Assembly: GCF_009930815.1 (NCBI RefSeq)
Contig: NZ_CP022222.1
Location: 5,188,501 to 5,252,500, forward strand
Direction of reading: 5' to 3'
Source: Bradyrhizobium sp. CCBAU 051011
GTDB taxonomy: Bacteria > Pseudomonadota > Alphaproteobacteria > Rhizobiales > Xanthobacteraceae
DNA: 64,000 nt
Below are positions 7,838 to 50,947 of this stretch, one piece after another. Positions within the stretch are counted from its first letter, which is position 1. Each line of letters begins with the position of its first letter. Both the position numbers and the translations under genes were made by a program. The notes under the pieces were generated by a model. It saw only the letters and a program-made list of their open reading frames with translations. It was not told the origin of the DNA and did not search any database.

Positions 7838-7871
7838 ATAGGGGAACTTCAAACACAAGGAGGAGAGGCCC

Positions 7872-8441: not shown

Positions 8442-8869
8442 ACAAGGCGAAGCGGGCACTGGCCCGATCTAGCGAGATACCGAACTTGCGCTGATGGCGA
8501 TCGCCGTCAGCGCAGAAGCAGGGCCACCATGTGGTGCCACTCCTTGGTTGAGCGCCGGCCGGAGAGGGTTGCGCAGCCATCACAGACCCGCGGCATTCCG
8601 GCGGGATTGTGCCGCATGTAATTCCCGGACATCGAATCTCGTAGCGGTCTTTGTTCGACCGCCATGCGCAAGACCAGATTGCCTGCGCGTGTAATCGGTC
8701 GCATTTGACCAATCGTCTGATTTTGCATGCTGCGGCGCGATGAACCTGTACCGGCGGCCGCGGTGCCGACGTCGGCCCCTCCCTGAAGGTGTTGACCCGT
8801 CCAGCGGTTTCCCTTCTATGGACGGTGCTGCCCTGACCGCACACACGCCCCCTCGCGAGGACTCCCACG
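8442..8869. other. Intergenic region, no gene recognised
   Basis: About 430 bp between gfa and the FAH-family gene. A weak hairpin CGGGC-ACTG-GCCCG sits just after gfa (8450-8463). A 73-codon open frame on the minus strand (8507-8728) has no recognisable family and no clear ribosome site, so it is not called. The 3' part should hold the promoter of the FAH gene, but no clear -35/-10 pair was seen. Confidence 0.4.
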
Positions 8870-10057
8870 ATGCCGATCGTCACCGACGCTGCTTTCATCC
8901 TGCCCGACGATTTCGCCGACGCCGCGCTGATGGGGCGGATCTGGCGTCCCGACCTTGCCGGGCCGTCGGTGGTCGCGATTCGTCAGGACGGCGTGTTCGA
9001 CGTCACCGACGAATTTCCCACCGCCAGCCAGCTTGCCGCCGTTGCCGATCCGGCCGGGGCGCTGCGTGCTGCGCGTGGCGAGCGGGTTGGCGCGCTGCAG
9101 GATCTCCTGAACAATACGCCGCCCGACACCCGCGACCCGGCCAGGCCATGGTTGCTGGCCCCGATCGACCTGCAGGTGATCAAGGCCGCCGGCGTCACCT
9201 TCGCCGTCTCGATGCTTGAGCGGGTGATCGAGGAGCGAGCGCGCGGCAATCCGGATTCGGCGGAAGCGATCCGGGCCGAGGTGACGCGGATCGTCGGCAC
9301 CGATCTGTCGCAATTGAAGCCGGGCTCGGCCGAAGCGCAGCATGTCAAGGACGTGCTGGTTTCGCAGAACGCCTGGAGCCAGTATCTCGAAGTCGGCATC
9401 GGGCCGGATGCCGAGGTGTTCACCAAGGCTCCCGTGCTGTCGGCGGTCGGCACCTGCGTGGATGCGGGCCTGCATCCGAAATCGACCTGGAATAATCCAG
9501 AGCCCGAGGTGGTGCTGGTGGTAGCCAGCGATGGCCGCATCGTCGGCGCCACACTCGGCAACGATGTCAATCTCCGCGACTTCGAGGGGCGCTCGGCGCT
9601 GTTGTTATCCAAGGCGAAGGACAACAACGCGTCCTGTGCCATCGGCCCGTTCGTGCGATTCTTCGACGCGAGCTTCACGCTCGACGACGTCAGGAAGATG
9701 GATATCTCGCTGGAAGTGAAGGGACCGGAGGGTTTCGTCCTGCACGGCGCATCCTCGTTGACAAAGATCAGCCGCGATCCGGCCGACATCGTCGGGCAGA
9801 CGATCAACGAGAACCATCAGTATCCCGACGGCTTCGTGTTGTTCCTCGGCACGATGTTCGCGCCGATCCAGGACCGTTTCGCGAAGGGGCAGGGGTTTAC
9901 CCACGTGGAAGGCGATCTGGTGACGGTCGCCACGCCGAAACTCGGCCGGCTGACCAACCGCATGCGTCACAGCGGCGATTGTGAACCCTGGCGGTTCGGC
10001 CTGACCGAGCTCTTCGCCACGTTGATGCGCCGTAAGGCCGGCCGAAGCAGCAATTAG
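8870..10057 (+). CDS. Fumarylacetoacetate hydrolase (FAH) family protein
   Basis: 395 residues. The C-terminal two thirds show the FAH fold: NPEPEVVLVV (metal-binding acidic residues), GATLGNDVNLRDFEGR, the following KAKDNNASCAIGPF, and a late QDRFAKGQGFTHVEGDLV segment. Members cleave C-C bonds or dehydrate 2-keto-3-deoxy sugar acids; the long N-terminal part resembles the subgroup linked to sugar-acid dehydration (2-dehydro-3-deoxy-arabinonate dehydratase type). Paired with a Gfo/Idh/MocA oxidoreductase just downstream, a sugar or polyol catabolic role is likely. The exact substrate cannot be read from sequence. Confidence 0.85.
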   Translation: MPIVTDAAFILPDDFADAALMGRIWRPDLAGPSVVAIRQDGVFDVTDEFPTASQLAAVADPAGALRAARGERVGALQDLLNNTPPDTRDPARPWLLAPIDLQVIKAAGVTFAVSMLERVIEERARGNPDSAEAIRAEVTRIVGTDLSQLKPGSAEAQHVKDVLVSQNAWSQYLEVGIGPDAEVFTKAPVLSAVGTCVDAGLHPKSTWNNPEPEVVLVVASDGRIVGATLGNDVNLRDFEGRSALLLSKAKDNNASCAIGPFVRFFDASFTLDDVRKMDISLEVKGPEGFVLHGASSLTKISRDPADIVGQTINENHQYPDGFVLFLGTMFAPIQDRFAKGQGFTHVEGDLVTVATPKLGRLTNRMRHSGDCEPWRFGLTELFATLMRRKAGRSSN

Positions 10058-10112
10058 CGCCCCGAACCACGCCAGCAATTCGGTCTTGGTCGACGAGGGA
10101 GGCATTCCGCAG

Positions 10113-11282
10113 ATGGCGAAAATCAGGATCGGCCTGGCCGGCTGCGGCTTCGTGTCCGAGCTGCACATGCATGCCTACCGTCGCGTTTACGGTGTGAACG
10201 TTGAGGTCGCCGCTGTTGCTGCGAGAGGCAATCATGTCGTCGAGTTTGCCGGCCGCCACCAGATTCCGACGGTCTATCGCAGCTTTCGCGACCTCATCGC
10301 CGATGCTGATCTCGACGTCATCGATATCTGCACGCCGCCCAATCTGCACACCTCGATGATCGTCGAGGCGATGCAGGCCGGCAAACACGTCATCTGCGAA
10401 AAGCCGTTCGCCGGCTATTTCGGCCGGGATGGCGACACGGCGCCGATCGGCAAGCATGTGCCGAAGGCATTGATGTATGAGCGCGTGCTGGAGGAAATGG
10501 AGAAGACCCGCGCGGCAATCGGCAACACCGGCAAGCTCTTCATGTATGCCGAGGACTGGATCTACGCGCCGGCGGTGACCAAGACTGTGGAGATCCTCAA
10601 AGCCACCAGGGACAAGATCCTGTTCATGAAGGGGGAGGAGAGCCACTCCGGCTCGCATGCCGCGCACGCCGCGCAATGGGCGATGACCGGCGGCGGCTCG
10701 TTGATCCGGATGGGATGCCATCCATTGTCGGCGGTGCTCTATCTCAAGCAGGTCGAGGCGAAGGCGCGCGGCGAGACGATCGGTGTTGCCAGCGTGACGT
10801 GTGACGTCGGCAACGTGACGGCGTGCCTGCGTCCGGACGAACGGACCGCACTCAAGGCCAATCCCGTGGATGTCGAGGATTGGGGCGTGCTCACGGCCAC
10901 CTTCTCGGACGGTACCAAGGCCACGGTGTTTTCCGGCGACATGATCCTTGGCGGCGTCCGCAACCTGATCGAAACCTATACCAGCAGCGGCTCGCTGTTC
11001 GCCAACATCACGCCGAACACGCACATGATGAGCTATCAGACCAGCGAGGAGAAGCTGGCCAACGTCTACATTACTGAAAAAGTCGACCGGAAGACCGGCT
11101 GGCAATACATCTGCCTCGAAGAGGAATGGACGCGCGGCTACACGCAGGAAATCCAGGATTTCATGGAATGCGTGGCGACAGGCCGCCAGCCGCTCTCGGA
11201 TCTGACGCTGGCCTTTGAGACCATCAAGGTCAACTACGCCGGCTATTGGGCGGCGGAGGAGGGGCGGCGCGTGACGCTTTAA
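10113..11282 (+). CDS. Gfo/Idh/MocA family NAD(P)-dependent oxidoreductase
   Basis: About 389 residues. The N-terminal Rossmann segment IGLAGCGFVSELHMHAY and the family signature EKPFAGYF (Glu-Lys-Pro) near residue 98 identify the family; the C-terminal alpha/beta domain contains a long HSGSHAAHAAQW stretch. Such enzymes act on sugars, inositols or related cyclic polyols. The ATG at 10113 is preferred because GAGGGAGG lies 10 nt upstream; a TTG at 10086 would extend it by nine residues. It follows the FAH-family gene by 55 bp, probably one operon. Substrate unknown. Confidence 0.85.
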   Translation: MAKIRIGLAGCGFVSELHMHAYRRVYGVNVEVAAVAARGNHVVEFAGRHQIPTVYRSFRDLIADADLDVIDICTPPNLHTSMIVEAMQAGKHVICEKPFAGYFGRDGDTAPIGKHVPKALMYERVLEEMEKTRAAIGNTGKLFMYAEDWIYAPAVTKTVEILKATRDKILFMKGEESHSGSHAAHAAQWAMTGGGSLIRMGCHPLSAVLYLKQVEAKARGETIGVASVTCDVGNVTACLRPDERTALKANPVDVEDWGVLTATFSDGTKATVFSGDMILGGVRNLIETYTSSGSLFANITPNTHMMSYQTSEEKLANVYITEKVDRKTGWQYICLEEEWTRGYTQEIQDFMECVATGRQPLSDLTLAFETIKVNYAGYWAAEEGRRVTL

Positions 11283-11290
11283 CGGCAATC

Positions 11291-11451
11291 TCTCTTCTCG
11301 CCTTGTGGGAGAAGGTGGCACGCGCAGCGTGCCGGATGAGGGGTTCTGTCCGCGGACTCAATTGCGAGAGGTTCATTCGCGGAGAGAGATCCGTCGCTCT
11401 TCGATGCGAAGCATCGAAGCCACCCTCTCCCAACAGCAAGGGGAGAGGGTG
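11291..11451. repeat. Palindromic intergenic repeat element
   Basis: A 160-bp element between convergent genes with imperfect outer inverted repeats (11297-11318 against 11420-11445; the right arm reads CCACCCTCTCCC). Inside are two perfect hairpins: GGCACGC-GCA-GCGTGCC (11317-11333) and CTTCGATGC-GAA-GCATCGAAG (11399-11419). This pattern, with GTGGGAGAAGGTGG next to GCCGGATGAGGGG, matches a repeat type I know as common between genes in Bradyrhizobium-like genomes. It may also end transcription from both sides. Confidence 0.7.
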
Positions 11452-11461
11452 AAAGATCGAC

Positions 11462-12772
11462 CTACGCCGCATACACCGACGATTTCGGCAGCGGGAATAC
11501 CGGGTCCTGCGTCCTGATATTGGTCGGCCAGACCACCGAGATATGCTCGCCGGCATTCTGCATCACGACAGGGGTCGAGCGCTCGTTCTGGCCGGAGAGC
11601 GGCGTGCCGGGCCGATAGAATTTCACGCCATAGCCCTGGATGGTGCCGCCCGGCGGGATATCGACGTCGAGCGCCGCCTTGCGAATGGCTTCGGGATCGA
11701 AGCCGCCATACTTCTCCTTGGCCACCGGCAGCACGCTGTTGAGCAGGATCCAGGTCTGATTGAAGCCCATCGAGCAGTGCGGCGGAATATCGGTCGCGTT
11801 GGTCTTCTCCTTGTAGCGCGCGATCATCACCTTGGTGAGGTCGCCGATCCCGGGCGCGAGCTTCGAAGCATCGAGCAACTGTGCCGGCACCGGATCGATA
11901 TTGCAGAAATTGTCGATGTCGGCGCCGAAGGTCGCCCGCAATTTGTCGAGCTGGCTGTAGCCGGCGCCGGCGCCGAACAGCATCTTGAACTTGAGGCCGT
12001 TCTCGCGCGCCTGGCGCAGGAACAGGGTGATATCAGGGTTGTATCCCGCGTGCGAGATGACGTCGGCCCTGGCGCGCTTGATCTTGGTTACCAGCACTGA
12101 GAGGTCGGGGGCGGATGCAGAATAGCCTTCCTTGAGCACGACCTGCAGGCCGGCCTCCTTCGCATAGGCCTCATCGGCGGCGGCGACACCGACCCCATAA
12201 GGACCATCCTCGTGGATCAGCGCGACCTTGACGTCCTTGGGCTCCATGCCGAGCTTCGCCTTGGCGTGCTCAGTGATGAAGCTCGCAAAGGCCTGGCCAT
12301 ATTGGTCGGAATGAATCTGCGCGCGGAAGACGTATTGCAGGTTCTTGTCCTTGAACACGGCGGTCGAAACCGCGGTCGTGATCCAGAGGATCTTCTTCTG
12401 CTGCTCGACCTTGGCCGCGAGCGGGACCGCATGCGAACTCGCGTAGACGCCGTTGATGATGTCGATCTTCTCCTGGTCGATCAGGCGATTGGCCTCGTTG
12501 ATCGCGACATCGGGCTTGCTCTGGGAATCCGCGGCGATGGCGGCAACCTTGTACTTGCCGCCGACGCCACCCTTTTCGTTGACGAGGTCGATGGCGATCT
12601 GCGCACCGATCGAGGACGCGACGGAGCCGCCCGCGGCAAAGGGACCGGTCAGATCGTAAATCAGACCGATGCGGACCGTCTCGGCTTGCGCCTGCGCGCG
12701 GGTCCAATCGAAGGTGAATGCAGCGGCGGCAGCCGCAGAAGTCTTCAGCAGTGTTCTGCGTGAAGTCGGCAT
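11462..12772 (-). CDS. LivK-type ABC transporter substrate-binding protein
   Basis: 436 residues, periplasmic binding protein of the branched-chain amino-acid class (Peripla_BP_6). The N-terminus has a twin-arginine motif SRRTLLK followed by a hydrophobic Ala-rich segment, so export by Tat is likely. The mature part begins VRIGLIYDLTGPFAAGG, the standard start of this fold, and contains NGVYASSHAVPLA and GYNPDITLFLRQ. GGGAGGA precedes the ATG. No permease or ATPase genes are adjacent, so it is an orphan here. Its ligand could be a substrate of the neighbouring FAH/oxidoreductase pair, though these run in the opposite direction; ligand unknown. Confidence 0.88.
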   Translation of the reverse strand: MPTSRRTLLKTSAAAAAAFTFDWTRAQAQAETVRIGLIYDLTGPFAAGGSVASSIGAQIAIDLVNEKGGVGGKYKVAAIAADSQSKPDVAINEANRLIDQEKIDIINGVYASSHAVPLAAKVEQQKKILWITTAVSTAVFKDKNLQYVFRAQIHSDQYGQAFASFITEHAKAKLGMEPKDVKVALIHEDGPYGVGVAAADEAYAKEAGLQVVLKEGYSASAPDLSVLVTKIKRARADVISHAGYNPDITLFLRQARENGLKFKMLFGAGAGYSQLDKLRATFGADIDNFCNIDPVPAQLLDASKLAPGIGDLTKVMIARYKEKTNATDIPPHCSMGFNQTWILLNSVLPVAKEKYGGFDPEAIRKAALDVDIPPGGTIQGYGVKFYRPGTPLSGQNERSTPVVMQNAGEHISVVWPTNIRTQDPVFPLPKSSVYAA

Positions 12773-12994
12773 CGTGTCCTCCCTTTTTTATCTGTTTTAT
12801 CTGTCGCCGGGACAGCTTGTCTGCGCTTTTTGCCAAGTATTTGGAGAAGAGGACAGGATGTCAACCTGTCGGCGACTGCTGCTTGATTAGGTCCGGTGGC
12901 GTGCCGGGAGGGAGGTACTCAGACTTTCGTCTCATCGCACCATCCAGGGCCGATGATCGGCATTCCGCAGTCTTTATTGGCTGCTCGGGCAACG

Positions 12995-13966
12995 TCACCG
13001 CCGCTTGCCGCGCGCCGACGTCCGGGTGATCCTGATCCTGCCCTGGGTTCGCGGCAGGAATTGCGCGCCGCGGGCGCTGAGGAAGTCCAGCATGGCGCGC
13101 GCCGGGGGCAGAAGGATCTTGTCCTTGCGGGAGAGGGCGAACCATTGCCTGACAATGGGAAGGCCGACTACATCCAGCGTGACCAGCCGTCGCTCGTCGA
13201 GTTCGGTGGCGACCGTATGCGCGGAAATAAATGCAATGCCGAGTCCGGCGATCACCGCCTGCTTGATCGTCTCATTGCTGCTCATCGCCATGCCGATGTT
13301 CGGGCGAATCCCTGCCGTCTCGAACAGTTGCTCCATCAGGCCGCGCGTCCCCGAGCCGGGCTCGCGCATCAGGAACGTCTCGTTGGCGAGGTCGCTCAGC
13401 GCAATGCGCGACTTTCGCGCCAGGCGATGGCTGGTCGGCGCGATAATGACATGCGGATGATCGCCGATCGGATGGACGTCCATCTCGATGTCGGCCGGGG
13501 GGCGGCCCATGATCGCGAAGTCGAGATCGTAGCCGCGTAGTGCGGTGCCGATCTCCTGGCGGTTTCCGATCGAGAGCGTGACATCGATATTCGGATGCCG
13601 TTTCGAAAATCCCGAGATCATGAACGGCACGAAATATTTCGCAGTACTGACCGCGCCGATCGAGATGCGCCCTGCCGTTTTGCCTGCGATCATCTCCAGC
13701 GAGGTTTCGCAGTCTGCAATCGCCGCTTCGATGCGCTCCGAAAGCGTCAGCACCTCGCGCCCGGCGTCGGTCAGCAGCATGCCGTCATTGGTGCGCTGGA
13801 TCAGCGGCACACCCGCAATCTCCTGCAGATTGCGGATCTGCAACGTGACCGCCGGCTGCGTCAGATGCAGTCGCTTCGCGGCCGCGGTAACCGACCGATC
13901 GCTGTGAACGGCTGCCAGCGCGCGCAACTGGCGAATGGTCAATTCTCGCCGAAACCTGTTTGCCAT
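12995..13966 (-). CDS. cbbR: LysR-family regulator CbbR of the Calvin cycle operon
   Basis: About 323 residues. An N-terminal winged helix (LRALAAVHSDRSVTAAAKRL then LTQPAVTLQI) is followed by a LysR effector domain. CbbR activates cbb operons in response to metabolites such as RuBP or ATP/NADPH status. It is divergent from cbbF, the standard arrangement. The ATG at 13966 is preferred over a TTG at 13978, because GGACAGG lies just upstream and the protein then begins ANRFRRELTIRQL. The 222 bp between its stop and the LivK-type gene show no further gene. Confidence 0.92.
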   Translation of the reverse strand: MANRFRRELTIRQLRALAAVHSDRSVTAAAKRLHLTQPAVTLQIRNLQEIAGVPLIQRTNDGMLLTDAGREVLTLSERIEAAIADCETSLEMIAGKTAGRISIGAVSTAKYFVPFMISGFSKRHPNIDVTLSIGNRQEIGTALRGYDLDFAIMGRPPADIEMDVHPIGDHPHVIIAPTSHRLARKSRIALSDLANETFLMREPGSGTRGLMEQLFETAGIRPNIGMAMSSNETIKQAVIAGLGIAFISAHTVATELDERRLVTLDVVGLPIVRQWFALSRKDKILLPPARAMLDFLSARGAQFLPRTQGRIRITRTSARGKRR

Positions 13967-13978
13967 GGGCCTGTCCAA

Positions 13979-14015
13979 TATAAGAAAAACTTTGGCAAAG
14001 CCAAAGATAAGAAAA
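13979..14015. promoter_or_regulatory. Putative CbbR operator in the cbbR-cbbF intergenic region
   Basis: A perfect inverted repeat CTTTGGC-AAA-GCCAAAG (13990-14006) is flanked by two direct copies of ATAAGAAAA (13980-13988 and 14007-14015). LysR regulators bind such sites between divergent genes. The site lies just upstream of cbbR and about 100 bp before the cbbF start. Binding is inferred from symmetry and position. Confidence 0.6.
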
Positions 14016-14116
14016 TTTCACTAATTTTGCAAACTGGGTTGTTGTTAGGCGCGGAGTGCGGATGGGCACGACGCTTTGCAATCGCCCCGAAAGCGGGCGC
14101 CAAACGGGGAACGGCC

Positions 14117-15154
14117 ATGGGCGCACGCGTGACCTTGTGCTCGCATCTTGATCAAACGGGGTCGGAGACACCGGTCGGGCCGGCCGTGTCCACCGTGATT
14201 GAGGCGATCGCTGCTGCGGCGATCGGCCTTGCCGATCTCATTGCCGACGGACCGTTGGCGGGCATTACCGGGAAAACCGATAGCGTCAATTCCGACGGCG
14301 ATTTTCAGAGAGACATCGATCTCGCCGCCGACGGAATGATGCGCGCAGCGTTGCGCAAGTCGCCGGTCGCCGCCGTTCTATCAGAGGAATCGGAACTGCC
14401 GGAAGTGTTCGATGCCGGGGCATCGCTCTGCGTCGCGATCGATCCGCTCGACGGGTCCGCCAACCTCGAAAACAACATTTCCGTCGGAACCATCTTTTCG
14501 ATCCGCTCGCGCGGCAACGACATCGTCTCCACTTTCTTCGAGCCCGGCACGGCGCAGTGCGCGGCAGGCTTCGTGGTCTATGGCCCGCAAACCACGCTGG
14601 TGCTGGCGTTCGACGAGCGCGTCGACATCTTCATTCTGGACCGGCGCGCGAGGGAATTCCTGCTGATCGCGCGCCGCGTCAGGATCGCGCCCGACACGCC
14701 CGAATTCGCCATCAATGCCTCGAACCGCCGGCACTGGCACGGACCGGTGCGGACCTATATCGACGAGTGCCTGGCCGGCACCAACGGCAGCTGCGCGGCC
14801 GATTTCAACATGCGCTGGATCGGCTCGCTGGTTGCGGAGTCGCTTCGCATTCTCGTTCGCGGCGGGGTGTTCCTGTATCCGGCGGATGCGCGACCGGCCT
14901 ATCGCGAGGGACGTCTTCGCCTGCTTTACGAGGCGCATCCGATGGCACTGGTGATGGAGTGGGCGGGCGGTGCCGCGACCACCGGCCGCCGCCGCATCCT
15001 CGAATTGTCGGCGAAAACGCCGCACCAGCGGGTGCCGCTGATCATGGGGTCGATGCGCGGCGTTCGCGACGTCACCGCCATTCATGAAGGCACCCAGCCG
15101 ATGTTCGACAACAGCGACGCGCCGCTATTCGCGCGGCGTGGCCTGTTTCGCTGA
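14117..15154 (+). CDS. cbbF: Fructose-1,6-bisphosphatase CbbF
   Basis: 345 residues, class I FBPase. The catalytic metal motif AIDPLDGSANLE is near residue 110, preceded by VLSEESE and followed by the SVGTIFSI core; the substrate phosphate-binding region YIDEC and FNMRWIGSLVAE lies in the second half. It dephosphorylates fructose-1,6- and probably sedoheptulose-1,7-bisphosphate in RuBP regeneration. The ATG at 14117 has GGGGA just upstream and begins the protein at the expected place; the open frame runs further upstream through the antisense strand of cbbR but that part is not coding. First gene of the cbb operon. Confidence 0.95.
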   Translation: MGARVTLCSHLDQTGSETPVGPAVSTVIEAIAAAAIGLADLIADGPLAGITGKTDSVNSDGDFQRDIDLAADGMMRAALRKSPVAAVLSEESELPEVFDAGASLCVAIDPLDGSANLENNISVGTIFSIRSRGNDIVSTFFEPGTAQCAAGFVVYGPQTTLVLAFDERVDIFILDRRAREFLLIARRVRIAPDTPEFAINASNRRHWHGPVRTYIDECLAGTNGSCAADFNMRWIGSLVAESLRILVRGGVFLYPADARPAYREGRLRLLYEAHPMALVMEWAGGAATTGRRRILELSAKTPHQRVPLIMGSMRGVRDVTAIHEGTQPMFDNSDAPLFARRGLFR

Positions 15155-15169
15155 CAGGGAAGAGCGCAG

Positions 15170-16045
15170 ATGTCACGCAGCTACCCCATCATATCGATTA
15201 CGGGTTCATCGGGCGCCGGCACGACGTCGGTGAAGAAGACGTTTGAAAACATCTTCCGCCGCGAGAACGTCGCCGCCGCCTATGTCGAGGGTGACGCCTT
15301 CCATCGCTACAACCGCTTTGAGATGCGCACGAAAATGGCCGAGGAAGCCGAGCGCGGCAACAAGCATTTCAGCCATTTCAGCCCGGAAACCAACCTGTTC
15401 GAAGAGCTGGAGAAGCTGTTTCGCGACTACGGCGAGTCCGGGACCGGCACCACGCGGCACTACGTCCATGACGATGAGGAAGCAAGACTGTACGGCGCAA
15501 AGCCGGGCACATTCACCGAATGGGCGCCGCTGCCGGAAAATTCCGATCTGTTGTTCTATGAGGGACTGCATGGCGCTGTCGTGACCGACAAGGTCAACAT
15601 CGCGCAACATGCCGACCTCAAGATCGGCGTCGTTCCCGTCATCAATCTGGAATGGATCCAAAAGCTGCATCGCGATCGCCGCGACCGCGGTTACACCGCA
15701 GAAGCGGTGACCGACACGATCCTGCGGCGGATGCCTGACTACGTGAACTATATCTGTCCGCAGTTCACCGAGACCGACATCAATTTCCAGCGGGTGCCGA
15801 CCGTCGACACCTCGAATCCCTTCATCGCGCGTTGGATACCGACGCCGGACGAATCGATGGTGGTGATCCGGCTGAAGAATCCGCGCGGCATCGATTTTCC
15901 CTATCTGCTGTCGATGATCCCAAACAGCTTCATGTCGCGCGCCAATTCGATCGTGATCCATGGCTCGAAGCTCGACCTCGCCATGCAGCTCATCCTCACC
16001 CCGCTGATCCTGCAACTGATGGAACGTAAGAGGCGCATGATATGA
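15170..16045 (+). CDS. cbbP: Phosphoribulokinase CbbP
   Basis: 291 residues, class I (bacterial, octameric) phosphoribulokinase. The P-loop GSSGAGTTS is at residues 12-20, followed by [10 protein letters not shown], with the catalytic Asp in the GDAFHR region and FYEGLHGA as the Walker B region. It phosphorylates ribulose-5-phosphate to RuBP, the committed step that supplies RuBisCO. It begins 15 bp after cbbF and its stop overlaps the cbbT start (ATGA), indicating translational coupling. Length and all motifs are normal. Confidence 0.96.
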
Positions 16046-18081
16046 CCGATCTAGCTCTATCCCGCGTTGCCAACGATTCGACTGTTTCGCACGCGGAAAT
16101 GGCGAACGCGATCCGCTTCCTGGCCATCGACGCCGTCGAGAAGGCGAAGTCCGGCCATCCCGGCATGCCGATGGGAATGGCGGACGTCGCCACTGTGCTG
16201 TTCTCGCGTTTCCTCAAATTCGATGCCGCCGATCCGGCGTGGCCGGATCGCGACCGGTTCGTGCTGTCGGCCGGTCACGGCTCGATGCTCTTATATGCGC
16301 TGCTGAACCTGACCGGCTACGAGGGCGTGACGGCGGACGAACTGAAGGCGTTCAGGCAATGGGGATCGAAAACCCCTGGTCATCCCGAGTACGGACATAC
16401 GCCCGGCGTTGAGACGACCACGGGCCCGCTGGGGCAGGGCATTGCCACAGCGGTCGGCATGGCGCTGGCGGAGCGCCTGATGAACGCGCGCTTCGGCGAC
16501 GACCTCGTCGATCACTATACTTATGTGATCGCCGGCGACGGCTGTCTGATGGAGGGTCTCAGCCACGAAGCGATTTCGCTGGCGGGACATCTCAGGCTCA
16601 GCCGGTTGATCGTGCTCTATGATGACAACGAGATTTCGATCGACGGCGCCACGTCGTTGTCATGCTCGGATGACCAGCTTGCGCGCTTCAAGGCGTCCGG
16701 CTGGTCAGCGGTCCGGATCGATGGCCATGACCCCGAAGCGATTGCGGCAGCGATCCGTCGCGCCCGGCAGAGCGACCGGCCATCCCTGATTGCTTGCCGT
16801 ACGGTGATCGGTTTCGGCGCGCCGAATCGGCAGGGCACCGAAAAGGCGCATGGCGCGCCGCTCGGAGCCGATGAAGTCGGGAAAACGCGCGGCGCGTTGA
16901 ACTGGCCGCATGCGCCATTTGAGGTTCCGGAAGCCGTCATCGATGCCTGGCGCGAAATAGGTGCGCAGGGACATGCCTCTCGGCGCGCCTGGGTCGAGCG
17001 GAGCAGGCGGGTCAATTCGGCGGGACGGTCGCCGTTTCACGATGCGCTGAACCGGAATTTGCCCTGCGGATATGCCGACGTCATGGCGCAACTACGGGTC
17101 CGGTTCGGCAGCGAGCGGCCGCGGGTCGCCACCCGGCAGGCGTCGCAAACGGTGATCGACGCGATCGCCGAAGCGCTGCCGAATCTCCTCGGCGGCTCGG
17201 CTGATCTCACCCATTCGAACCTGACGCGCGCCAAGACGCAGCAATCGGTGCGGGCCGATAGGCTCGAAGGCAGCTATATTCATTACGGTGTCCGCGAACA
17301 TGCGATGGCTGCCGCGATGAACGGCATCGCGCTGCATGGCGGCTTCATTCCCTATGGCGGCACGTTTCTCAGCTTCGCTGATTACAGCCGCCCGGCGATC
17401 AGGCTGGCGGCGCTGATGGGCATCCGCGTCATCCATGTCATGACGCATGACTCGATCGGCCTGGGTGAGGACGGTCCGACGCATCAGCCCGTCGAGCATC
17501 TGGCGTCGCTGCGGGCCATCCCGAACTTGCTGGTATTTCGGCCCGGCGATGCCGTCGAGACCGCGGAGGCGTGGGATTGTGCATTGCGGCAGCTCAGCGC
17601 TCCGTCCGTGCTGTGCCTGTCGCGGCAGGCGGTCCCGACGTTCCGTGAAGTCACTGACCAAACCAATCTGGTCGCGTTCGGCGCTTACGTCGTCGTTGAA
17701 CCGGAGGCCGGCCGCGACGTCACTCTGATCGCAACGGGTTCCGAAGTATCGATCGCGCTCGAGGCGGCAAGATTGCTCGAGAAGGACAACGTCCGCGCCG
17801 CGGTGGTCTCGGCGCCGTGCTTCGATCTGTTTCGCCAGCAATCCCGCGAATATCGGACCGCCGTTCTGGGTCGCGTTCCAAGGGTAGGCGTTGAGGCCGC
17901 GGTCGAAGGCGACTGGGCCCACTGGCTTGGCGATCGCGGCGAATTCGTCGGCATGACCGGCTTTGGAGCATCCGCGCCGGCCGAGACGCTCTACCGCGAG
18001 TTCGGCATTACGCCGCAGGCGGTTGCGACCGCCGCCATGCGTTGCCTGGCCCGAACCAGAATGACGGAGACCTACGCATGA
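16042..18081 (+). CDS. cbbT: Transketolase CbbT
   Basis: 679 residues, thiamine diphosphate enzyme that moves two-carbon units in the Calvin cycle. TPP-binding segment [13 protein letters not shown] and Mg-binding [10 protein letters not shown] are in the N-terminal domain; [12 protein letters not shown] and [12 protein letters not shown] are classical transketolase blocks. The pyrimidine domain has [17 protein letters not shown], and the C-terminal domain is intact. It overlaps cbbP by four bases. A housekeeping tkt elsewhere is expected but not visible here. Confidence 0.95.
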
Positions 18082-18118
18082 TGATGAACGTAACGCCGAA
18101 CCAGAAAAGGAGGCGCCG

Positions 18119-20720
<2,602 letters not shown>

Positions 20721-20732
20721 GGAGAGAAGATC

Positions 20733-21152
20733 ATGCGTATCACTCAGGGATGTTTTTCGTTTCTGCCTGATCTTACCGATGAGCAGATCACCCGGCAGGT
20801 GCAGTATTGCCTCGGCAAGGGATGGGCGGTGAACATCGAATTCACCGACGATCCGCACCCGCGCAATAATTTTTGGGAGATGTGGGGCCTGCCGATGTTC
20901 GACCTGCCCGATGCCGCGGGCGTGCTGATGGAACTCAACGAGTGCCGCAAGGTCTATGGCGATCGCTACATCCGGATGTCGGCCTACGATTCCAGCCATG
21001 GCTGGGAGTCGCTGCGGCTGTCGTTCATCGTCAACCGGCCGAAGGATGAGCCCGGCTTCCGCCTCGAACGCCACGAGATGGCCGGCCGCAACATCAGGTA
21101 CACGACGACATCCTATGCCGCCGACCGCCCGGAGGGCCGGCGCTACGGGTAA
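20733..21152 (+). CDS. cbbS: RuBisCO small subunit, form I (red type)
   Basis: 139 residues. The start [19 protein letters not shown] and the blocks [24 protein letters not shown] (positions about 30-53) and [13 protein letters not shown] near the C-terminus are typical of red-type small subunits, including the C-terminal extension absent from green types. It follows cbbL by 12 bp with GGAGAGAAG upstream, and together they form the L8S8 enzyme. A terminator-like hairpin follows it. Confidence 0.96.
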
Positions 21153-21211
21153 ACAACTCCTCGGGCCGGCGGACGAGTTCTCCCTGATCGTTGCTGCGTT
21201 CGCCGGAACTG

Positions 21212-21249
21212 CTCCGTCGCTGTGCAAGCGGCGACGGAGGTTTTTTGTT
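21212..21249 (+). terminator. Rho-independent terminator between cbbS and cbbX
   Basis: A perfect 9-bp stem CTCCGTCGC (21212-21220) and GCGACGGAG (21231-21239), with a 10-nt loop, is followed by G and a T-rich tract (21241-21249). It should end most transcripts after cbbS and lower cbbX expression relative to cbbLS. Confidence 0.8.
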
Positions 21250-21278
21250 TCTCAGGAATGCGCGCTGAGGTTCGGCAG

Positions 21279-22193
21279 ATGGATATGGATGTGCCAACAA
21301 CCACGGACAGGGTAAGCCTTCGGGAGGAGCTCGAGGCCGTCGGCATCGAGGAAATCCTGACGCAGCTCGATCGCGAGCTGATCGGCTTGAAGCCGGTCAA
21401 GACGCGAATCCGCGAGATCGCGTCGCTGCTGCTGATCGAGCGCATCCGCAAGCGCATGGGACTGACGTCGGAAGCACCGACGCTGCACATGTCGTTTACG
21501 GGGAATCCCGGCACCGGAAAGACCACGGTGGCGCTGCGGATCGCCGATATCCTGCACAGGCTCGGCTATATCCGTCGCGGCCAGGTGGTGTCGGTGACGC
21601 GTGACGAGCTGGTCGGACAATATATCGGTCACACCGCGCCGAAGACCAAGGAGATACTGAAGAAGGCAATGGGCGGCGTGCTGTTCATCGACGAAGCTTA
21701 TTACCTGTACCGGCCGGACAACGAGCGCGACTACGGCCAGGAGGCGATCGAGATCCTGCTGCAGGTGATGGAATCGCAACGTGACGATCTGGTGGTGATC
21801 CTTGCCGGCTACGGCGACCGCATGGACAAGTTCTTCGCCAGCAATCCCGGCTTCCGTTCACGCATCGCGCACCACATCGACTTTCCCGATTATTTCGACG
21901 ATGAGCTGATCGACATCGCGGAACTGATGCTGCGGGAGATGAATTACAAGTTCACGCCGGAGGCGCGGGCGGAGTTCGTTCGCTACATCGCATTGCGCAA
22001 GAACCAGCCGCTGTTCTCCAACGCACGCTCGATCCGAAATGCCCTGGATCGTCTGCGGCTGCGCCAGGCCAATCGTCTGATCGCCGATCTCGACCATGTC
22101 CTGACGGTAGACGACATCAGGTCGATTGAGGCGTCGGACGTGCTGGCGAGTCGCGTGTTCAGGAAGGGAGAAAAATCCGCCGAAGCGAATTAG
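21279..22193 (+). CDS. cbbX: Red-type RuBisCO activase CbbX
   Basis: About 304 residues, AAA+ ATPase that removes inhibitory sugar phosphates from red-type RuBisCO by pulling on the large-subunit C-terminus. Walker [10 protein letters not shown] is at residues 75-83, Walker [14 protein letters not shown] near 130-142, and sensor/arginine-finger region [14 protein letters not shown] follows. The conserved pore segment YIGHTAPKT is present. The ATG at 21279 is preferred (TGAGG 8 nt upstream); an ATG at 21258 would add seven residues. It lies just downstream of a terminator, so reduced read-through expression is expected. Confidence 0.95.
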
Positions 22194-24441: not shown

Positions 24442-26760
24442 CTACACCTCCAATTGCTTGCCGATCGGCAGCGCGCGAATGCGCTTGCCGGTCGCGGCGA
24501 AGATCGCGTTGATCAACGCAGGCGCAACGGGCGGCAGTCCTGGCTCGCCAACGCCGCTGGGCGGCGTGTCGGGGCCCGCAGGCGCGATATAGACGTTGGT
24601 CACAGCGGGGGCTTCGTCGATCCGAATTACCGGGAAATCGTCGAAATTGCCCTGTTGCACCTTGCCGTCCTTGAAAGTGATCTCGCCATATTTGGCGAAG
24701 CTCATGCCCATGATTACAGCGCCTTCCATCTGCGCCTGGATTCGCTCCGGATTGACGTGAGTTCCGCAATCGATCGCGGTATCCACCCGGGGCACGGTGA
24801 GCTTGCCCTTGTCGTCGAAAGCTACCTCGACAATGGTCGCGATGTAGCTGACGAAGCTGCGGTGCGCGGCAATGCCGAGCCCGTGGCCCTTGGGCACGGA
24901 CCGTCCCCAACCGCCCTTGTCCGCGACCAGCTCGACGACCTTGCGAAGGCGCGCGGTATCGATTGGATAGCTGTCATAAGGCTCACCATAGTTCCAGAGG
25001 TCCTTCACGGAATCTAGCTTGAGGATCCGGGGAGAGCCGATCAGCTCCAGCAGCATGGCCTTTTGATCGCGGTTGGTGGCATGGGCGAGTTCGCCCACCA
25101 TCGATTGCACCGCAAAGGCGCGCGGGATATTCGACACCGAGCGGAACCAGCCGATGCGGGTCCGCGCGGCCGCTTCCGGATTCTCGCATTGCACATTAGC
25201 GATCTCGAAGGGCATGTCGACAAGCCCCATGCCAAGCTCAAACGGCGCCTGATGCACCGCGCCAGCCTCAAAGGTCGAGGCGATGGTCGGCGCGACGCTG
25301 CGATGCCGCCAGGCCGTCACCTTGCCGCTCTTGTCGAGGCCGGCCTCGATGCGTTCCACCGAGACGGTGTGCAGGAAGCAGTTGCGAATGTCGTCTTCCC
25401 GCGTCCATTGCACCTTGACGGGAGCGCCGAGCTCCTTTGAAAGCAGTGCCGCCTCGAGGGCGAAATCGCACTTCGACTTGCGCCCGAACCCGCCGCCGAG
25501 CAGCGTGACGTTGACGGTGACATTCTCCTGGGGAATGCCAAGCGTCTTGGCGACGTCCTCGCGCGTTCCGCCCGCGCTTTGCACCGGTGCCCAGATCTCC
25601 GCCTTGTCGCCCTTGACGTCCGCGACCGCGACCGGCGGTTCCATGCTGGCATGGGCATGATGCGGCACGTAGTACTCACCGACGATCACCTTGTCGGCGC
25701 CCTTCAAGGCGGCCTCCACGTCGCCCTCCTTGCGTACCACCAGGCCGGGTTTCCGTGCGGCTTGCTCCAGCTCGGCGCGGTAGGCGACCGACTCGTATTT
25801 GCCGTTGGCGCCATCGTCCCAGACGACCTTCAACGCGTTGCGGCCCTTGATTGCCGCGCCGGTGTTCCGCGCGATCACGGCAACGCCGCCGAGTGGCTGG
25901 AATTTGGATGGCCACGGCCAGCCCTTGACTTCCATGACTTTCTCGACGCCGGAAACCTTCATCGCTTCCGCCCCGTCGAACGACGCGACCTTGCCGCCGG
26001 TCACCGGCGGCCGGGCAATGACGGCGTATTTCATGCCGGGCAAACGGACGTCGGCGCCGTAACGAGCGGCGCCCACCGTGATGTCGCGACCGTCGACGAT
26101 GCCGATCGCGCCCTTGCCGAGATAACGGAAGTCCTTCGGGTCCTTGAGCCTCAAGCCTTCGACACTCGGCACCGACTCCCTGGCGGCATCGGCTGCTAGC
26201 TCGCCGAAGCCAATGCGGCGTCCGCTCGCATTGTGAACGACCTCGTGATTGATCGCCTTCACTTCGGTCGCCGGCACGCCCCAACGTTTCGCCGCGGCGG
26301 CTTCCAGCATCGTGCGGGCGGAAGCGCCGATCTGGCGCATTGGCATCAGATAGTGCCGCGTGCTGCGCGATCCGTCGGTATCCTGGTTGCCAAACTTGAC
26401 CTCGTCGCCAGGCGCCTGCTGGACGCGAACGCGCGACCAGTCGGCTTCCATTTCTTCGGCGACGATCATCGGCAGGCTGGTGCGGACACCCGTTCCCATC
26501 TCGGCGCGGTGCGCGACGATCGTCACTGTTCCGTCGGATGCGATAGAAACGAAAACGCGCGGGTTCACCACGGTACCGTGCGGCATCTGGTCCGCACCGG
26601 TCTGGTACGCAGCAAAGCCGGGGCGCGACATCACGGGAGCGGCGAGCACAAAACCGCCGGCCAGCCCGAGGCCCTTCAAGATACTGCGGCGTGAAACGTT
26701 GTCGACCTTGATGTGCCGTTCGAAGCCACGGAGCTTGTTGGGATTGGTTGACATATTCAT
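24442..26760 (-). CDS. Molybdenum hydroxylase large subunit, IorB/aldehyde dehydrogenase type
   Basis: About 772 residues, xanthine oxidase-family molybdopterin subunit (isoquinoline 1-oxidoreductase beta-like). The N-terminus has a twin-arginine motif [15 protein letters not shown], so the complex is exported folded to the periplasm. Mo-cofactor blocks [12 protein letters not shown] near residue 510 and the C-terminal [14 protein letters not shown], carrying the catalytic Glu, are present. Two ATGs compete (26760 and 26754); the frame extends upstream into the small subunit but that is not coding. It pairs with the adjacent 2Fe-2S subunit, 2 bp away. Likely reaction: aldehyde or N-heterocycle hydroxylation in the periplasm; the substrate is unknown. 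Confidence 0.88.
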
Positions 26761-26762: not shown

Positions 26763-27215
26763 TCACACCCCCGTCGATGCGAGATGCACAGCCTTCTCGA
26801 TGCGTTGATAAGTGCCGCAACGGCAGATGTTGCCCGACATCGCTTCGCGTATCTGGTCGTGATTGGGCTTTGGATTTTCCATCAACAGGGCCGCCGCCTG
26901 CATGATCTGGCCGACCTGGCAGAAGCCGCATTGCGGAACATTGAGCTGGCGCCAGGCCTTCTGAACTGCATGATCGCCTGTGGGGTGAAGACCTTCGATC
27001 GTTGTGACCTCCCGGTCGACCACGTCGGAGACCGACGTGATGCAGGAGCGTACCGCCTGCTTGTCGACGATGACGGTACAGGCGCCGCAAAGCGCCTGGC
27101 CGCAGCCGAATTTCGTACCCGTCAGCCCGACTTCGTCGCGGAGGAACCAGAGTAGCGGAAGATCGGGATCGCCATCCCAGTTCTTTTGCTGGCCGTTAAT
27201 CTTCAAAGTAATCAT
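26763..27215 (-). CDS. Molybdenum hydroxylase 2Fe-2S small subunit, IorA type
   Basis: 150 residues. The N-terminal plant-ferredoxin cluster is [16 protein letters not shown] with its fourth cysteine in VRSCITSV, and the C-terminal cluster is [12 protein letters not shown] with NICRCGTY. This is the full four-plus-four cysteine pattern of these subunits. It has no signal peptide and is presumably exported with the Tat-bearing large subunit. It is translated just before the large subunit. It relays electrons from the Mo site to an acceptor not encoded alongside; no cytochrome c gene follows, unlike many such operons. Confidence 0.92.
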
Positions 27216-27835
27216 GATCGATCCTCGCTCTTCATAAGCTGCTGATGGTTGCTCCGACGTGCGCGATAACAGTCCTGCTGACCGCTCGACGCCGTCGCTT
27301 CGAAATTCCTTGCTGTCTGGCTGGGATTTCTGTGAGCCATCCTCCTGATCGTTATTATTGGCTGTTGTTCAGTAGGCCGCGCTTCTCGATCACTACCACA
27401 AGGCGTTCTACATTTTGCTTCCGCATGTTTGGCGAAAGCGGGGCATCGCCAAAGAATTGCATTTGGTAAGCGACGCTGACGCAGTGAGGGCGAACAATGC
27501 GCAATTGCGTCAAACTTGAATGTTCCCGTCGGGACAAAATGGAAGATCGCCTCGTCGACGTTGTGCGGCCAGCATCGGCGTGCACCGTGCGCGCAACGGA
27601 CACCGGGATGCGCCGCTTGCGGGCCCGTAACGCACTGCACATCGCCAAAGGCTGAGCTGTTCTGCGAAATACGCATGAGGCGTCGAGCTGCAATGGCGAT
27701 CTCAGGAAATGCGAAGGGTGCTTACTGTTACGGGCGTTTGTTGCAATCGCTGTCACCAGACGGAAGAAAAGTTTGCTCAAGGCGCAATCTGTCTGTCGCC
27801 TTTTTTTTGACCGACTCTCTCCTTCAGGTTGAGTG
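27216..27835. promoter_or_regulatory. Large divergent regulatory region, no gene recognised
   Basis: 620 bp between the molybdenum hydroxylase genes and the Rieske/PQQ dehydrogenase genes. It contains an inverted repeat TTGGCGA-N10-TCGCCAA (27429-27452), a palindrome CGCAATTGCG (27500-27509) and TCCCG-T-CGGGA near 27528. Two minus-strand open frames here (27212-27676 and 27355-27843) look non-coding: Arg/His/Ser-rich with no family. The base composition is less GC-rich than in the flanks. It should hold both divergent promoters. Confidence 0.5.
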
Positions 27836-28486
27836 ATGTGCAAATCAGATCAGGCAACAACGTCGATCACACGCACAGACACGGAGCTTGCGACAGCGAT
27901 GTGTCAGGATCCAACGCGGCGCGCACTCATCCTGACGGCTCTTGCGACCGGGGCCTGCTTGGCGTCATCCAGCCCCTCCATTGCCGAGGAAGATTTGCCT
28001 GGAAGCAACGAGCGGCCCCAGAAGGGCGACGTTCTGGTTTTCGCCGAAGGGGATCGTGCGGGCGAGGTGATCAAGCCGCAGGATTTGCAGGCTGGTGGAC
28101 CGCCGGTTCGGGCCTGGCCAAAGGATCCCAAGACATCGGTCGTGCGCAAGGGCTCGCGCCTGAACGAGGTGCTCGTCGTAAAACTGGAACCGACTGAGCT
28201 GGATGAAGAAACGCGCTCACGCGCCGCCGGCGGCGTGGTGGCCTATTCGGCAATCTGCGTCCACACCGGTTGTCCGATCACTGCATGGGTAAAGGCGGCA
28301 GGCGGCGACAAGGACGTGTTCAAATGCGTTTGCCATAATTCGGAATATGACCCCCGGCAAAGCGCGCAAGTCATCTTTGGACCGGCGCCCCGGCGTCTGC
28401 CGGCGCTTCCGTTGGCGCCAGATGACGGTCCGCTGACGGTGGCCGCAACATTCATTGGAAAGGTAGGTGCGCAGCAAGCCAGATGA
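27836..28486 (+). CDS. Periplasmic Rieske 2Fe-2S protein, partner of the PQQ dehydrogenase
   Basis: About 216 residues. The N-terminal TRRALILTALATGA segment at residues 27-40 looks like a Tat signal or membrane anchor. Rieske motifs are C141-V-H143-T-G-C146 and C164-V-C166-H167-N-S-E-Y: two Cys plus two His ligands and the two extra cysteines that form the disulfide of high-potential, bc1-type Rieske proteins. No cytochrome b or c1 gene is nearby. It lies 71 bp before the PQQ dehydrogenase gene, so electron transfer between the two is a reasonable inference. Start: ATG 27836, or the overlapping GTG at 27833. Confidence 0.85.
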   Translation: MCKSDQATTSITRTDTELATAMCQDPTRRALILTALATGACLASSSPSIAEEDLPGSNERPQKGDVLVFAEGDRAGEVIKPQDLQAGGPPVRAWPKDPKTSVVRKGSRLNEVLVVKLEPTELDEETRSRAAGGVVAYSAICVHTGCPITAWVKAAGGDKDVFKCVCHNSEYDPRQSAQVIFGPAPRRLPALPLAPDDGPLTVAATFIGKVGAQQAR

Positions 28487-28557
28487 CGGCGGGAAGCCGT
28501 CGATCCACGACAAAAACAGAATTCGTGAGAGGAAAACAAAAAGGGGAGTGCTGCGCT

Positions 28558-30279
28558 ATGGCCTTGAAGCAATGGATCTTGTCGGGTTTGCTTGCGTCCA
28601 CATGCCTCGTTTCGATCGCTGCCGCCGGCCCGATCGAGAATTACAGCCCGGTAACCACCGAACGGCTCAAGAATCCCGAACCCGGCAACTGGATGCATTA
28701 TCGCCGGACTTATGACGGCCAAGGATACAGCCCGCTCGACCAGATCAACACCTCGAACGTGAAAAACCTGACGCCAGCGTGGACATTCTCGACCGGTGTG
28801 GTCGAGGGACACCAGGCGCCGCCGATCATCAACAATGGCGTGATGTTCGTCTCAACGCCGGAGGGACAGGTGATCGCGCTCAACGCCAAGACCGGCGATG
28901 AGTACTGGCGATACAAACGCCAGCTTCCCGAAGATCTCTTTCAACTGCACCCGACCAACCGCGGCGTAGGACTGTGGGAGGACAAGCTGTACCTCGCCAC
29001 GACGGACGACCATCTGGTCGCGCTCGATGCCAAGACCGGCAAAGTAGTCTGGGACACCAAGGTTCAGGACTACAAGAAGGGACAGTATTTGACGCTGATG
29101 CCGCTGGTCGTCGACGGCAAGGTGATCGTCGGCGGTTCCGGCGGCGAATTCGGCATCCGCGGTTATATCGTTGCCTACGATGCCAACACAGGCAAGGAGC
29201 TTTGGCGAACCTTCACCATACCCGGCCCGGGCGAGCCCGGCCATGACACGTGGAGCGGAGACGACTGGAAAACCGGGGGTGCACCTGCCTGGATGACAGG
29301 CACCTACGATGTGGACACCAGAACGGTCTACTGGGGCACCGGCAACGCCGCGCCCTGGCCAGGCGAAACCCACCCCGGCGACAATCTCTACTCGACATCG
29401 GTGCTCGCGCTCGATCCCGACAGCGGCAAGATGAAATCATATTTCCAGTACCATCAAAACGATTCCTGGGACTGGGACGAGGTGGACGCCCCCATGCTGA
29501 TCGACCTGCAAAGGGACGGCCGCACCATCAAGAGCTTGGTTCATCCCGGACGCAACGCGATCTTCTGGGTGCTCGAGCGCAAGCCGGAGGGCATCAAATA
29601 CGTCGCCGGCTGGCCTTTCGTTTATACCAACGTCTGGAAGAGTATCGATCCCAACGGCAAGCCGATTGCGGATCCCGCCCACAAGCCGGGAATTGGCAAG
29701 CGGGTTGAATTCTGCCCGTCCCTGTGGGGCGGCAAGGATTGGCCGTCGGCGGCATATAGTCAGAAGACCGGATTGGTCTACGTTCCCGCCAACGAGAATT
29801 TCTGCGGCGGCTTTACCGGCGAGAAAGTGCCGCTCGTTGCCGGCAAGCTTTGGCTCGGGACCAAGCCCGAGGATATCGGCTTGACGCCCCGTCCCGGCGC
29901 TACCCACTTTGGCGAACTGCAGGCGTGGGATCCGGCCACGGGCAAGAAGGCCTGGTCGCATAATTTCCCAAAGTCACAACTGTTCGGTTCGGTGACCGCT
30001 ACCGCCGGCGACCTCGTCTTTGTCGGCGGCACCAATGACCGGATGTTCCGCGCCTTCCATGCCAAGACCGGTGAACTGCTTTGGGAGCAAAAGACCAACT
30101 CCGGGATCGTCGGCATGCCGATCGCCTATGAGGTGGACGGCACGCAATATATCGCCGTCCAGTCGGGTTGGGGTGTCGACGCGCAGCGCATTCAGGACGC
30201 ATTGGTGGGCAAGGTCCCTGGCTTGGAGAATAACGTGCCGCAAGGCGGCGTCGTCTGGGTGTTCGCCGTTAAGAAGTGA
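28558..30279 (+). CDS. PQQ-dependent alcohol dehydrogenase with lanthanide-type motif, no vicinal Cys pair
   Basis: 573 residues, methanol/ethanol quinoprotein family. Signal peptide ends near AAA-GP. Beta-propeller W motifs (LDAKTGKVVW, DANTGKELW, HAKTGELLW) are present. Metal and catalytic landmarks are E197 (GGEFG), N263 (GTGNA) and WDWDE with D305 as catalytic Asp and D307 as the extra lanthanide-type Asp. Where XoxF has C126-C127, this protein has Q129-L130 (FQLHPTNRG), so the characteristic disulfide ring is missing. No haem-binding motif is present. Start ATG 28558 follows AAGGGGAG. It probably oxidises a primary alcohol; the exact substrate is unknown. Confidence 0.9.
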   Translation: MALKQWILSGLLASTCLVSIAAAGPIENYSPVTTERLKNPEPGNWMHYRRTYDGQGYSPLDQINTSNVKNLTPAWTFSTGVVEGHQAPPIINNGVMFVSTPEGQVIALNAKTGDEYWRYKRQLPEDLFQLHPTNRGVGLWEDKLYLATTDDHLVALDAKTGKVVWDTKVQDYKKGQYLTLMPLVVDGKVIVGGSGGEFGIRGYIVAYDANTGKELWRTFTIPGPGEPGHDTWSGDDWKTGGAPAWMTGTYDVDTRTVYWGTGNAAPWPGETHPGDNLYSTSVLALDPDSGKMKSYFQYHQNDSWDWDEVDAPMLIDLQRDGRTIKSLVHPGRNAIFWVLERKPEGIKYVAGWPFVYTNVWKSIDPNGKPIADPAHKPGIGKRVEFCPSLWGGKDWPSAAYSQKTGLVYVPANENFCGGFTGEKVPLVAGKLWLGTKPEDIGLTPRPGATHFGELQAWDPATGKKAWSHNFPKSQLFGSVTATAGDLVFVGGTNDRMFRAFHAKTGELLWEQKTNSGIVGMPIAYEVDGTQYIAVQSGWGVDAQRIQDALVGKVPGLENNVPQGGVVWVFAVKK

Positions 30280-50885: not shown

Positions 50886-50947
50886 TGCAGCCGTCTGGTC
50901 TCATGGAGGCACGGGAGATCTGTCACCATATTTTCTAAGGCGATTTG

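Follow-up and report, generated by a model that had tools for sequence, protein, structure and literature searches.

We examined a 64,000-nucleotide stretch of the Bradyrhizobium sp. CCBAU 051011 genome (contig NZ_CP022222.1, forward-strand positions 5,188,501 to 5,252,500; the window), in which a gene for an exported-type Rieske [2Fe-2S] protein stands directly ahead of a gene for a pyrroloquinoline quinone (PQQ)-dependent alcohol dehydrogenase. The host genome is a single contig of 9.1 Mb, and open reading frames (ORFs) in the window were called at a minimum length of 90 amino acids with greedy choice. Their coordinates and translations place the two ORFs on the same strand, 71 bp apart with the Rieske gene upstream, as the initial annotation had described (Table 1). 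No terminator-like site was called in the spacer. Together with the shared strand and the short distance, this makes it likely that the two genes form an operon, and we infer that they are co-transcribed.

The Rieske ORF product scored 36.2 bits against PF00355 (cut-off 20.3). Three starts are available (GTG 27833, ATG 27836, and ATG 27899), and comparison with homologs points to ATG 27899 as the probable true one. The protein carries the twin-arginine motif TRRALIL, whose RR pair was unchanged in 20/20 aligned homologs; export is suggested by this twin-arginine translocation (Tat)-type signal, read by eye. The initial annotation had also claimed a full set of cluster ligands and both disulfide cysteines, and the motifs CVHTGC and CVCHNSEY contain them all. 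C142, H144, and C147 were invariant in both alignments that we made (13 and 20 homologs), C165, C167, H168, and S170 in the 20-sequence alignment, and both ligand pairs with the disulfide cysteines were retained in 20/20. The final residue of the second motif is F in 37 and Y in 12 of 49 representative paired Rieske proteins. A predicted model of the protein had a predicted local distance difference test score (pLDDT) of 85.5, with block means of 93-98 across residues 61-210. By sequence, the nearest solved structure was the Thermus thermophilus Rieske protein 1nyk (133.6 bits), with 3fou as second-best chain; 1nyk was also the best fold match (template modeling score on target 0.92, 1.8 Å, 44% identity). 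The protein fell below the cut-off of all seven named families that it matched, including the bc1 type (TIGR01416, 38 bits against 97.4; NF050121, 88.4 against 275) and the arsenite oxidase AioB type (TIGR02694, 44 bits against 95.65).

The dehydrogenase belongs to TIGR03075 (623.9 bits, cut-off 480.05) and has a Sec-type signal at its N-terminus, as judged by eye. A Pfam scan of the window protein found no additional domain. Its nearest solved structure is 6zcv, named quinoprotein ethanol dehydrogenase, which we take to be PedH. At the site where other PQQ alcohol dehydrogenases have a vicinal Cys-Cys (EDLFQLHPTNRG), a short deletion and a conserved His (residue 131) stand in its place, and the disulfide ring is absent. 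The enzyme has WDWD, an Asp-x-Asp motif in which a second Asp lies two residues past the catalytic Asp, a lanthanide signature according to excerpts of one study (PMC12628762); it is therefore probably of the lanthanide type. Among 49 paired representatives, the second position was D in 36, A in 12, and unscored by the pattern in one.

Table 1. Features of the Rieske-dehydrogenase locus and its neighbors in the window.
Feature	Position	Strand	Remarks
Exported-type Rieske [2Fe-2S] protein, 217 aa from GTG	27833..28486	+	ORF, PF00355, motifs
Tat-type signal region MCQDPTRRALILTALATGACLASSSPSIA	27899..27985	+	judged by eye
First cluster motif CVHTGC, residues 142-147	28256..28273	+	C142, H144, C147
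Second cluster motif CVCHNSEY, residues 165-172	28325..28348	+	C165, C167, H168, S170
Spacer, 71 bp	28487..28557	+	GGGGAG ribosome-binding-type sequence ahead of ATG 28558
PQQ-dependent alcohol dehydrogenase, methanol/ethanol family, 573 aa	28558..30279 (ATG)	+	TIGR03075
Site of the vicinal Cys-Cys of other PQQ alcohol dehydrogenases, EDLFQLHPTNRG	28930..28965	+	alignment
Asp-Trp-Asp, residues 305-307	29470..29478	+	catalytic Asp and second Asp
IorA-type [2Fe-2S] subunit of molybdenum hydroxylase	26763..27215	-	Fer2_2, 102.6 bits; divergent from the pair
IorB-type molybdopterin subunit	24442..26760	-	MoCoBD domains only; twin-arginine motif SRRSILKG
XoxF-like gene	4186-6072		TIGR03075, 779.9 bits; name by recognition
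Methanol-related 4-Cys cytochrome, CXXCH ORF	6097-6657		TIGR03874, 245.7 bits, cut-off 161.75; behind the XoxF-like gene

Cytochrome c is the textbook partner of quinoprotein alcohol dehydrogenases. The initial annotation had reported neither bc1 nor cytochrome c genes near the pair, and this held: the sole ORF with a CXXCH heme motif called in the 64-kb window is the methanol-related cytochrome, more than 20 kb away, and the bc1 locus lies at a distance of 1.2 Mb. We then compared dehydrogenases across loci. Among those linked to a Rieske gene and with full 3.5-kb flanks, a CXXCH ORF lay within 1 kb of 1/73 in Bradyrhizobium (78 in all) and 0/33 in distant or plasmid loci (38 in all). Unlinked PQQ dehydrogenases from the same Bradyrhizobium loci served as a matched control, without the flank condition, and had such a neighbor in 29/31 cases.

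Genes were considered paired when they lay on the same strand with a gap below 1.5 kb; loci (L) and genomes (G) are numbered below where they must be told apart. The genome searches scored the best 3 to 10 candidates per genome, so that absences in them are no proof of absence. In a family sample of 296 genomes, 29 had the Rieske protein, and a PQQ dehydrogenase stood beside it in 29/29 loci. A scan of 84,980 species genomes found 184 relatives. Among the best 80 of these 184 (78 loci, all Bradyrhizobium), 79 copies were paired; the exception, in Bradyrhizobium tropiciagri (L079 9962-10594), is an orphan Rieske gene with no dehydrogenase within 10 kb on either side. The pair also occurs in tandem copies in Bradyrhizobium (L064 9902-16920 and L062 10007-15388). 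An order sample of 397 genomes gave 30 Rieske matches, three of them weak and AioB-like. Beyond the order, strong matches numbered a further 9 in the class sample (385 genomes) and 2 in the phylum sample (398 genomes). From these searches we assembled 30 distant copies, of which 3 belong to the family, 16 (in 15 genomes) to the rest of the order, and 11 to the class and phylum. All 30 were paired, with the Rieske gene first in 27 and the PQQ gene first in 3, across 17 Pseudomonadota families; 9 of these families lie in the order, and the class adds 6 and the phylum 2. The gap is widest in L198 (about 0.9 kb) and L171 (about 0.7 kb), and both gaps contain a called ORF. The initial annotation had made its proposal depend on conserved adjacency in relatives, which was found in the family, Bradyrhizobium, and distant Pseudomonadota copies. 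Chance adjacency was rejected on the same counts of 29/29 loci, 79/80 copies, and 30/30 copies.

The converse search gave a matching result. In the 397 order genomes, the dehydrogenase (E<=1e-120) was found in 28 and the Rieske protein in 27 (without the three AioB-like matches), with 26 shared. In G503, the Rieske-only genome, the Rieske gene adjoins a PQQ fragment where the contig ends. As for the PQQ-only genomes, G574 encodes an enzyme with the Cys-Cys and has a CXXCH gene adjacent to it, and G518 has neither the Rieske protein nor the Cys-Cys. Six weak Rieske matches (E 1e-14 to 3e-18) adjoin a large oxidoreductase, which begins with C-x-F-C-I-V-G-C-G-Y in 5/6 cases and is presumably AioA. 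Tree distances of Rieske and PQQ proteins were correlated (r 0.60, 49 pairs, reached by 0/999 permutations), but r is inflated by the species history that the proteins share, and the support it lends is weak.

Plasmids were searched with tblastn, which returned 16 records; a distant query returned 8, all within the 16. We examined 11 loci in 10 records, leaving aside six records (five Thermus and one Paracoccus yeei). The pair was present at 9 of the 11 loci (8 records), including betaproteobacteria, gammaproteobacteria, and Deinococcus. Gene order is Rieske-PQQ-2Fe-2S-molybdopterin in Roseomonas marmotae, Rieske-PQQ-aldA in Azoarcus sp. KH32C, and PQQ-Rieske with aldA nearby in Paracoccus yeei, P. 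alcaliphilus, and Paracoccus sp. Arc7-R13. Alteromonas macleodii likewise has PQQ-Rieske, with aldA and an alpha-hydroxy acid oxidase gene nearby. The pair is also present in Deinococcus aetherius and, at two loci, in Methylobacterium aquaticum 22A, where it was seen in the ORFs of a record without annotation. In the examined plasmid records with annotation, the paired gene is named by domain only. No PQQ gene stood beside the Rieske gene in the examined Thermus and Meiothermus plasmid copies; there, a related Rieske gene adjoins a TauE/SafE sulfite-exporter-type gene (L263 5968-6561 and L264 5920-6519), a further pairing of a Rieske gene.

We surveyed the disulfide site in an alignment of 154 dehydrogenases. 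The Cys-Cys was absent from 107/108 scorable Rieske-adjacent enzymes and present in one (L162), with one further sequence cut; in non-adjacent enzymes it was present in 40/45. The five that lacked it were L243, the second tandem copy of L155, L250, L251, and the second gene of L156. These counts are not independent, because most sequences are from Bradyrhizobium. At the ring site, 47/49 representative pairs had H-x-T-N/S-R-G, and the other two, L162 and the Deinococcus locus L265, had the Cys-Cys. A dehydrogenase tree was rooted on the window XoxF-like protein and read for topology alone. The enzymes with the His motif formed one clade, with the Rieske-less L243 basal to it, L265 beside it, and L162 elsewhere. 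The disulfide ring has been given a role in electron transfer to cytochrome c550, according to excerpts of two articles that cite Mennenga 2009 (PMC12997753, PMC8546591).

Several loci depart from the simple pair. The pairing in L162 (5733-8275) is of a second kind, in which the Rieske gene is a related one and the PQQ dehydrogenase next to it is distant (35%). In L155 (3952-8228), one Rieske gene is followed by two tandem PQQ dehydrogenases, one with WDWD and one with WDWA, which are perhaps lanthanide and calcium forms with a common acceptor. In L156 (10104-11831) and L161 (4028-5593), the gene after the Rieske-linked dehydrogenase encodes a divergent PQQ-like paralog (27-29% identity); a pattern search found no catalytic motif in either paralog. 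Directly behind the PQQ gene, L164 (10460-10933), L167 (5208-5672), and L197 (101-583) encode secreted-looking proteins of about 155 amino acids with an Asp-rich tail; they are alike by eye, and those of L164 and L167 had no Pfam match.

Taken together, we consider it likely that the PQQ alcohol dehydrogenase gives its electrons directly to the soluble, presumably Tat-exported Rieske protein, which takes the place of a dedicated cytochrome c. The analysis thus supports the alternative periplasmic route from PQQ to a 2Fe-2S protein suggested by the initial annotation. As judged from its family, the dehydrogenase would oxidize a primary alcohol or 1,2-diol and hold the electrons as PQQH2. Single electrons would then pass from PQQH2 to the Rieske cluster, a step we infer because the pairing is conserved, the cytochrome gene is missing, and the disulfide ring is lost. 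By analogy with AioB, a general periplasmic cytochrome c and an oxidase may reoxidize the Rieske protein, and a cytochrome c is likely to act further downstream in the route. The aldehyde would be converted to an acid by the neighboring periplasmic-type IorAB, or by an AldA-type enzyme in other bacteria. IorAB, which has no heme motif, might feed the same Rieske protein, although this is speculative.

A broader version of this proposal is close to an even chance but tilts slightly against. It would make the paired enzymes a separate quinoprotein branch, found in at least 17 sampled Pseudomonadota families, in which the ring has given way to the His motif and the Rieske acceptor is held in common with a heme-less molybdenum aldehyde oxidoreductase. 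Alcohol would then be taken to acid by a four-electron module on one 2Fe-2S carrier, with a more ancestral, disulfide-bearing pair in Deinococcus.

The neighbors of the pair give hints of its substrate. IorAB, aldA, LldD-like, or lactate genes accompany it in part of the loci. Pfam matches around L159 included a GntR regulator, a lactate permease, a LutB-type protein, and pyruvate dehydrogenase E1, and those around L168 LutB-type and CCG-domain proteins; L166, from a third genome of the same genus, has similar surroundings by its ORF starts. The aldA of Paracoccus yeei scored 750.4 bits against NF007497 (cut-off 500), and the Alteromonas hydroxy acid oxidase is LldD-like, below cut-off. E. coli AldA oxidizes lactaldehyde and glycolaldehyde. 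Judged from the lactate, aldA, and LldD-like company, 1,2-propanediol or ethylene glycol may be the substrate outside Bradyrhizobium. In some relatives the product is probably lactate, which makes 1,2-propanediol the candidate there.

Within Bradyrhizobium, an XoxF-like gene lay in the fetched flanks of 31/78 loci, with iorAB co-directional with it in 30/31, and in the window it is about 22 kb from the pair. Methanol or formaldehyde is therefore a possible substrate in this genus. The pair could accept electrons as proposed and still act there as a side arm of XoxF on these compounds, rather than on longer alcohols or diols; we regard this variant as a serious possibility, with the balance against it, and its counterweight is the lactate, aldA, and LldD-like company elsewhere. 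Window positions 4186-22193 hold, by eye, the XoxF-like gene, the cytochrome, an apparent glutathione formaldehyde dehydrogenase, Gfa, and a Calvin-cycle cluster with RuBisCO. The same XoxF-CBB methanol layout is described for Bradyrhizobium in excerpts of PMC12628762. Further along, positions 50945-62364 hold ORFs that resemble a Tad/Cpa pilus cluster by look (prepilin peptidase, CpaB-like, and others).

The dehydrogenase could instead use a cytochrome c encoded elsewhere, such as the methanol-type cytochrome at 6097-6657, with the Rieske protein mainly serving IorAB or another neighbor. The presence of that cytochrome in the window and the frequent XoxF-like genes with co-directional iorAB favor this explanation. 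In Bradyrhizobium, an IorA homolog was found in 73/78 loci, and an IorB homolog lay within 6.5 kb of 76/79 pairs, on the same strand in one; no CXXCH was found in the window IorB-type subunit. Among the distant pairs, however, IorB was near only 10/30 (9 on the same strand), although the Rieske and PQQ genes were paired in 30/30, so the Rieske gene tracks the PQQ gene and not iorAB. A tie mainly to IorAB was rejected on this ground, IorAB being optional. The disulfide ring tied to cytochrome c transfer is also absent. Overall, we judge a cytochrome encoded elsewhere to be an unlikely acceptor.

Co-regulation without electron transfer, with the Rieske protein as a redox sensor, an assembly factor, or a protective factor, is quite improbable: neighborhood alone does not tell function, and the small secreted proteins behind some PQQ genes suggest that accessory factors can travel with them, but 20/20 homologs keep the cluster ligands and the disulfide cysteines unchanged, and hardly any CXXCH ORF lies nearby. 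That the Rieske gene is a stray copy of the bc1 iron-sulfur subunit is scarcely credible, and a bc1 remnant was rejected on model scores and neighborhood: it partially matches bc1 Rieske models, and 3fou is named a quinol-cytochrome c reductase subunit, but its TIGR01416 score compares with 240.1 bits for the genome's own bc1-type Rieske gene (at 4.055 Mb of contig C1; one of 18 PF00355 matches in the genome), and it has a conserved link to a PQQ enzyme instead. The ORF beside that bc1-type gene matches cytochrome b models, all below cut-off, and has one CXXCH; we take it as the bc1 b/c1 gene. No cytochrome b gene was recognized beside the window Rieske gene, whose neighbors are the PQQ dehydrogenase and the molybdenum hydroxylase.

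Several observations weigh against the Rieske protein as dedicated acceptor. Widening the search to 3.5 kb places a CXXCH ORF near 2/33 distant or plasmid and 5/73 Bradyrhizobium linked dehydrogenases. Full 3.5-kb flanks were available for only 10/45 unlinked dehydrogenases. Of these 10, just 3 had a CXXCH ORF within 1 kb, so lack of a cytochrome neighbor is not peculiar to the pair. The B. tropiciagri copy (L079) has no dehydrogenase, and L243 lacks both the Cys-Cys and a Rieske gene, as do L250 and L251. Conversely, L162 and L265 are paired yet retain the Cys-Cys; therefore disulfide loss is no condition for pairing. Because the enzymes without Cys-Cys fall in one clade, the correlation may reflect a single event. 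With an XoxF-like gene in 31/78 Bradyrhizobium regions, the cytochrome beside the window XoxF-like gene could serve the dehydrogenase. Docking was attempted with a fused read-through chain, from an alignment of 31 rows with too little diversity (77-95% identity to the first). The resulting model, with a pLDDT of 62.7 and a predicted template modeling score of 0.58, was too poor for a judgment on docking either way.

Soil bacteria commonly carry PQQ dehydrogenases to which no function has been assigned. According to excerpts of a 2025 article on methanol growth that depends on lanthanides, one Bradyrhizobium strain has seven further PQQ dehydrogenases with unknown functions (PMC12628762). If our proposal is correct, the Rieske-coupled branch suggests a role for one widespread group of these enzymes, and a 2Fe-2S protein would be able to take over from cytochrome c. 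Since the ring is missing in the Rieske-paired branch, the branch also offers a natural experiment on what the ring contributes to electron transfer. Annotation misses the pairing, as the paired gene is known by domain name only in the annotated plasmid records. The initial annotation knew of no such pairing as described, and we likewise found no account of one in the excerpts of open-access full texts among the matches listed, a scope outside which most subscription papers lie. These data point to electron hand-off through the pair as a so far undescribed route.

Compared with the PedE/PedH-PedF, ExaA-ExaB, and XoxF-XoxG systems, the window enzyme is similar in its TIGR03075 membership, its periplasmic type, and the Asp-x-Asp found in most paired members, but it has a Rieske gene instead of an adjacent cytochrome c gene and no vicinal Cys-Cys. 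The quinone-linked, membrane-bound glucose dehydrogenase mGDH has a His at that position and is not known to have the disulfide ring or to use a cytochrome c. The window enzyme resembles it in lacking the ring and having His at the site, and differs in having no extra Pfam domain. Closest to the window Rieske protein in sequence and fold are the Thermus thermophilus structures 1nyk and 3fou, although the latter carries the reductase name given above and the examined Thermus and Meiothermus plasmid copies have no PQQ gene. In arsenite oxidase, the Rieske protein AioB is encoded beside the periplasmic AioA, takes its electrons, and hands them to cytochrome c; an entry for this oxidase with its acceptor cytochrome c552 (8ed4) was among the structure matches of our Rieske model. 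The two systems differ in that AioA is a molybdenum enzyme and the dehydrogenase a quinoprotein, and the window Rieske protein falls well below the AioB cut-off. They have in common a Rieske gene beside the gene for a periplasmic-type oxidoreductase, and by this analogy the Rieske protein described here may act as the acceptor of its neighbor.

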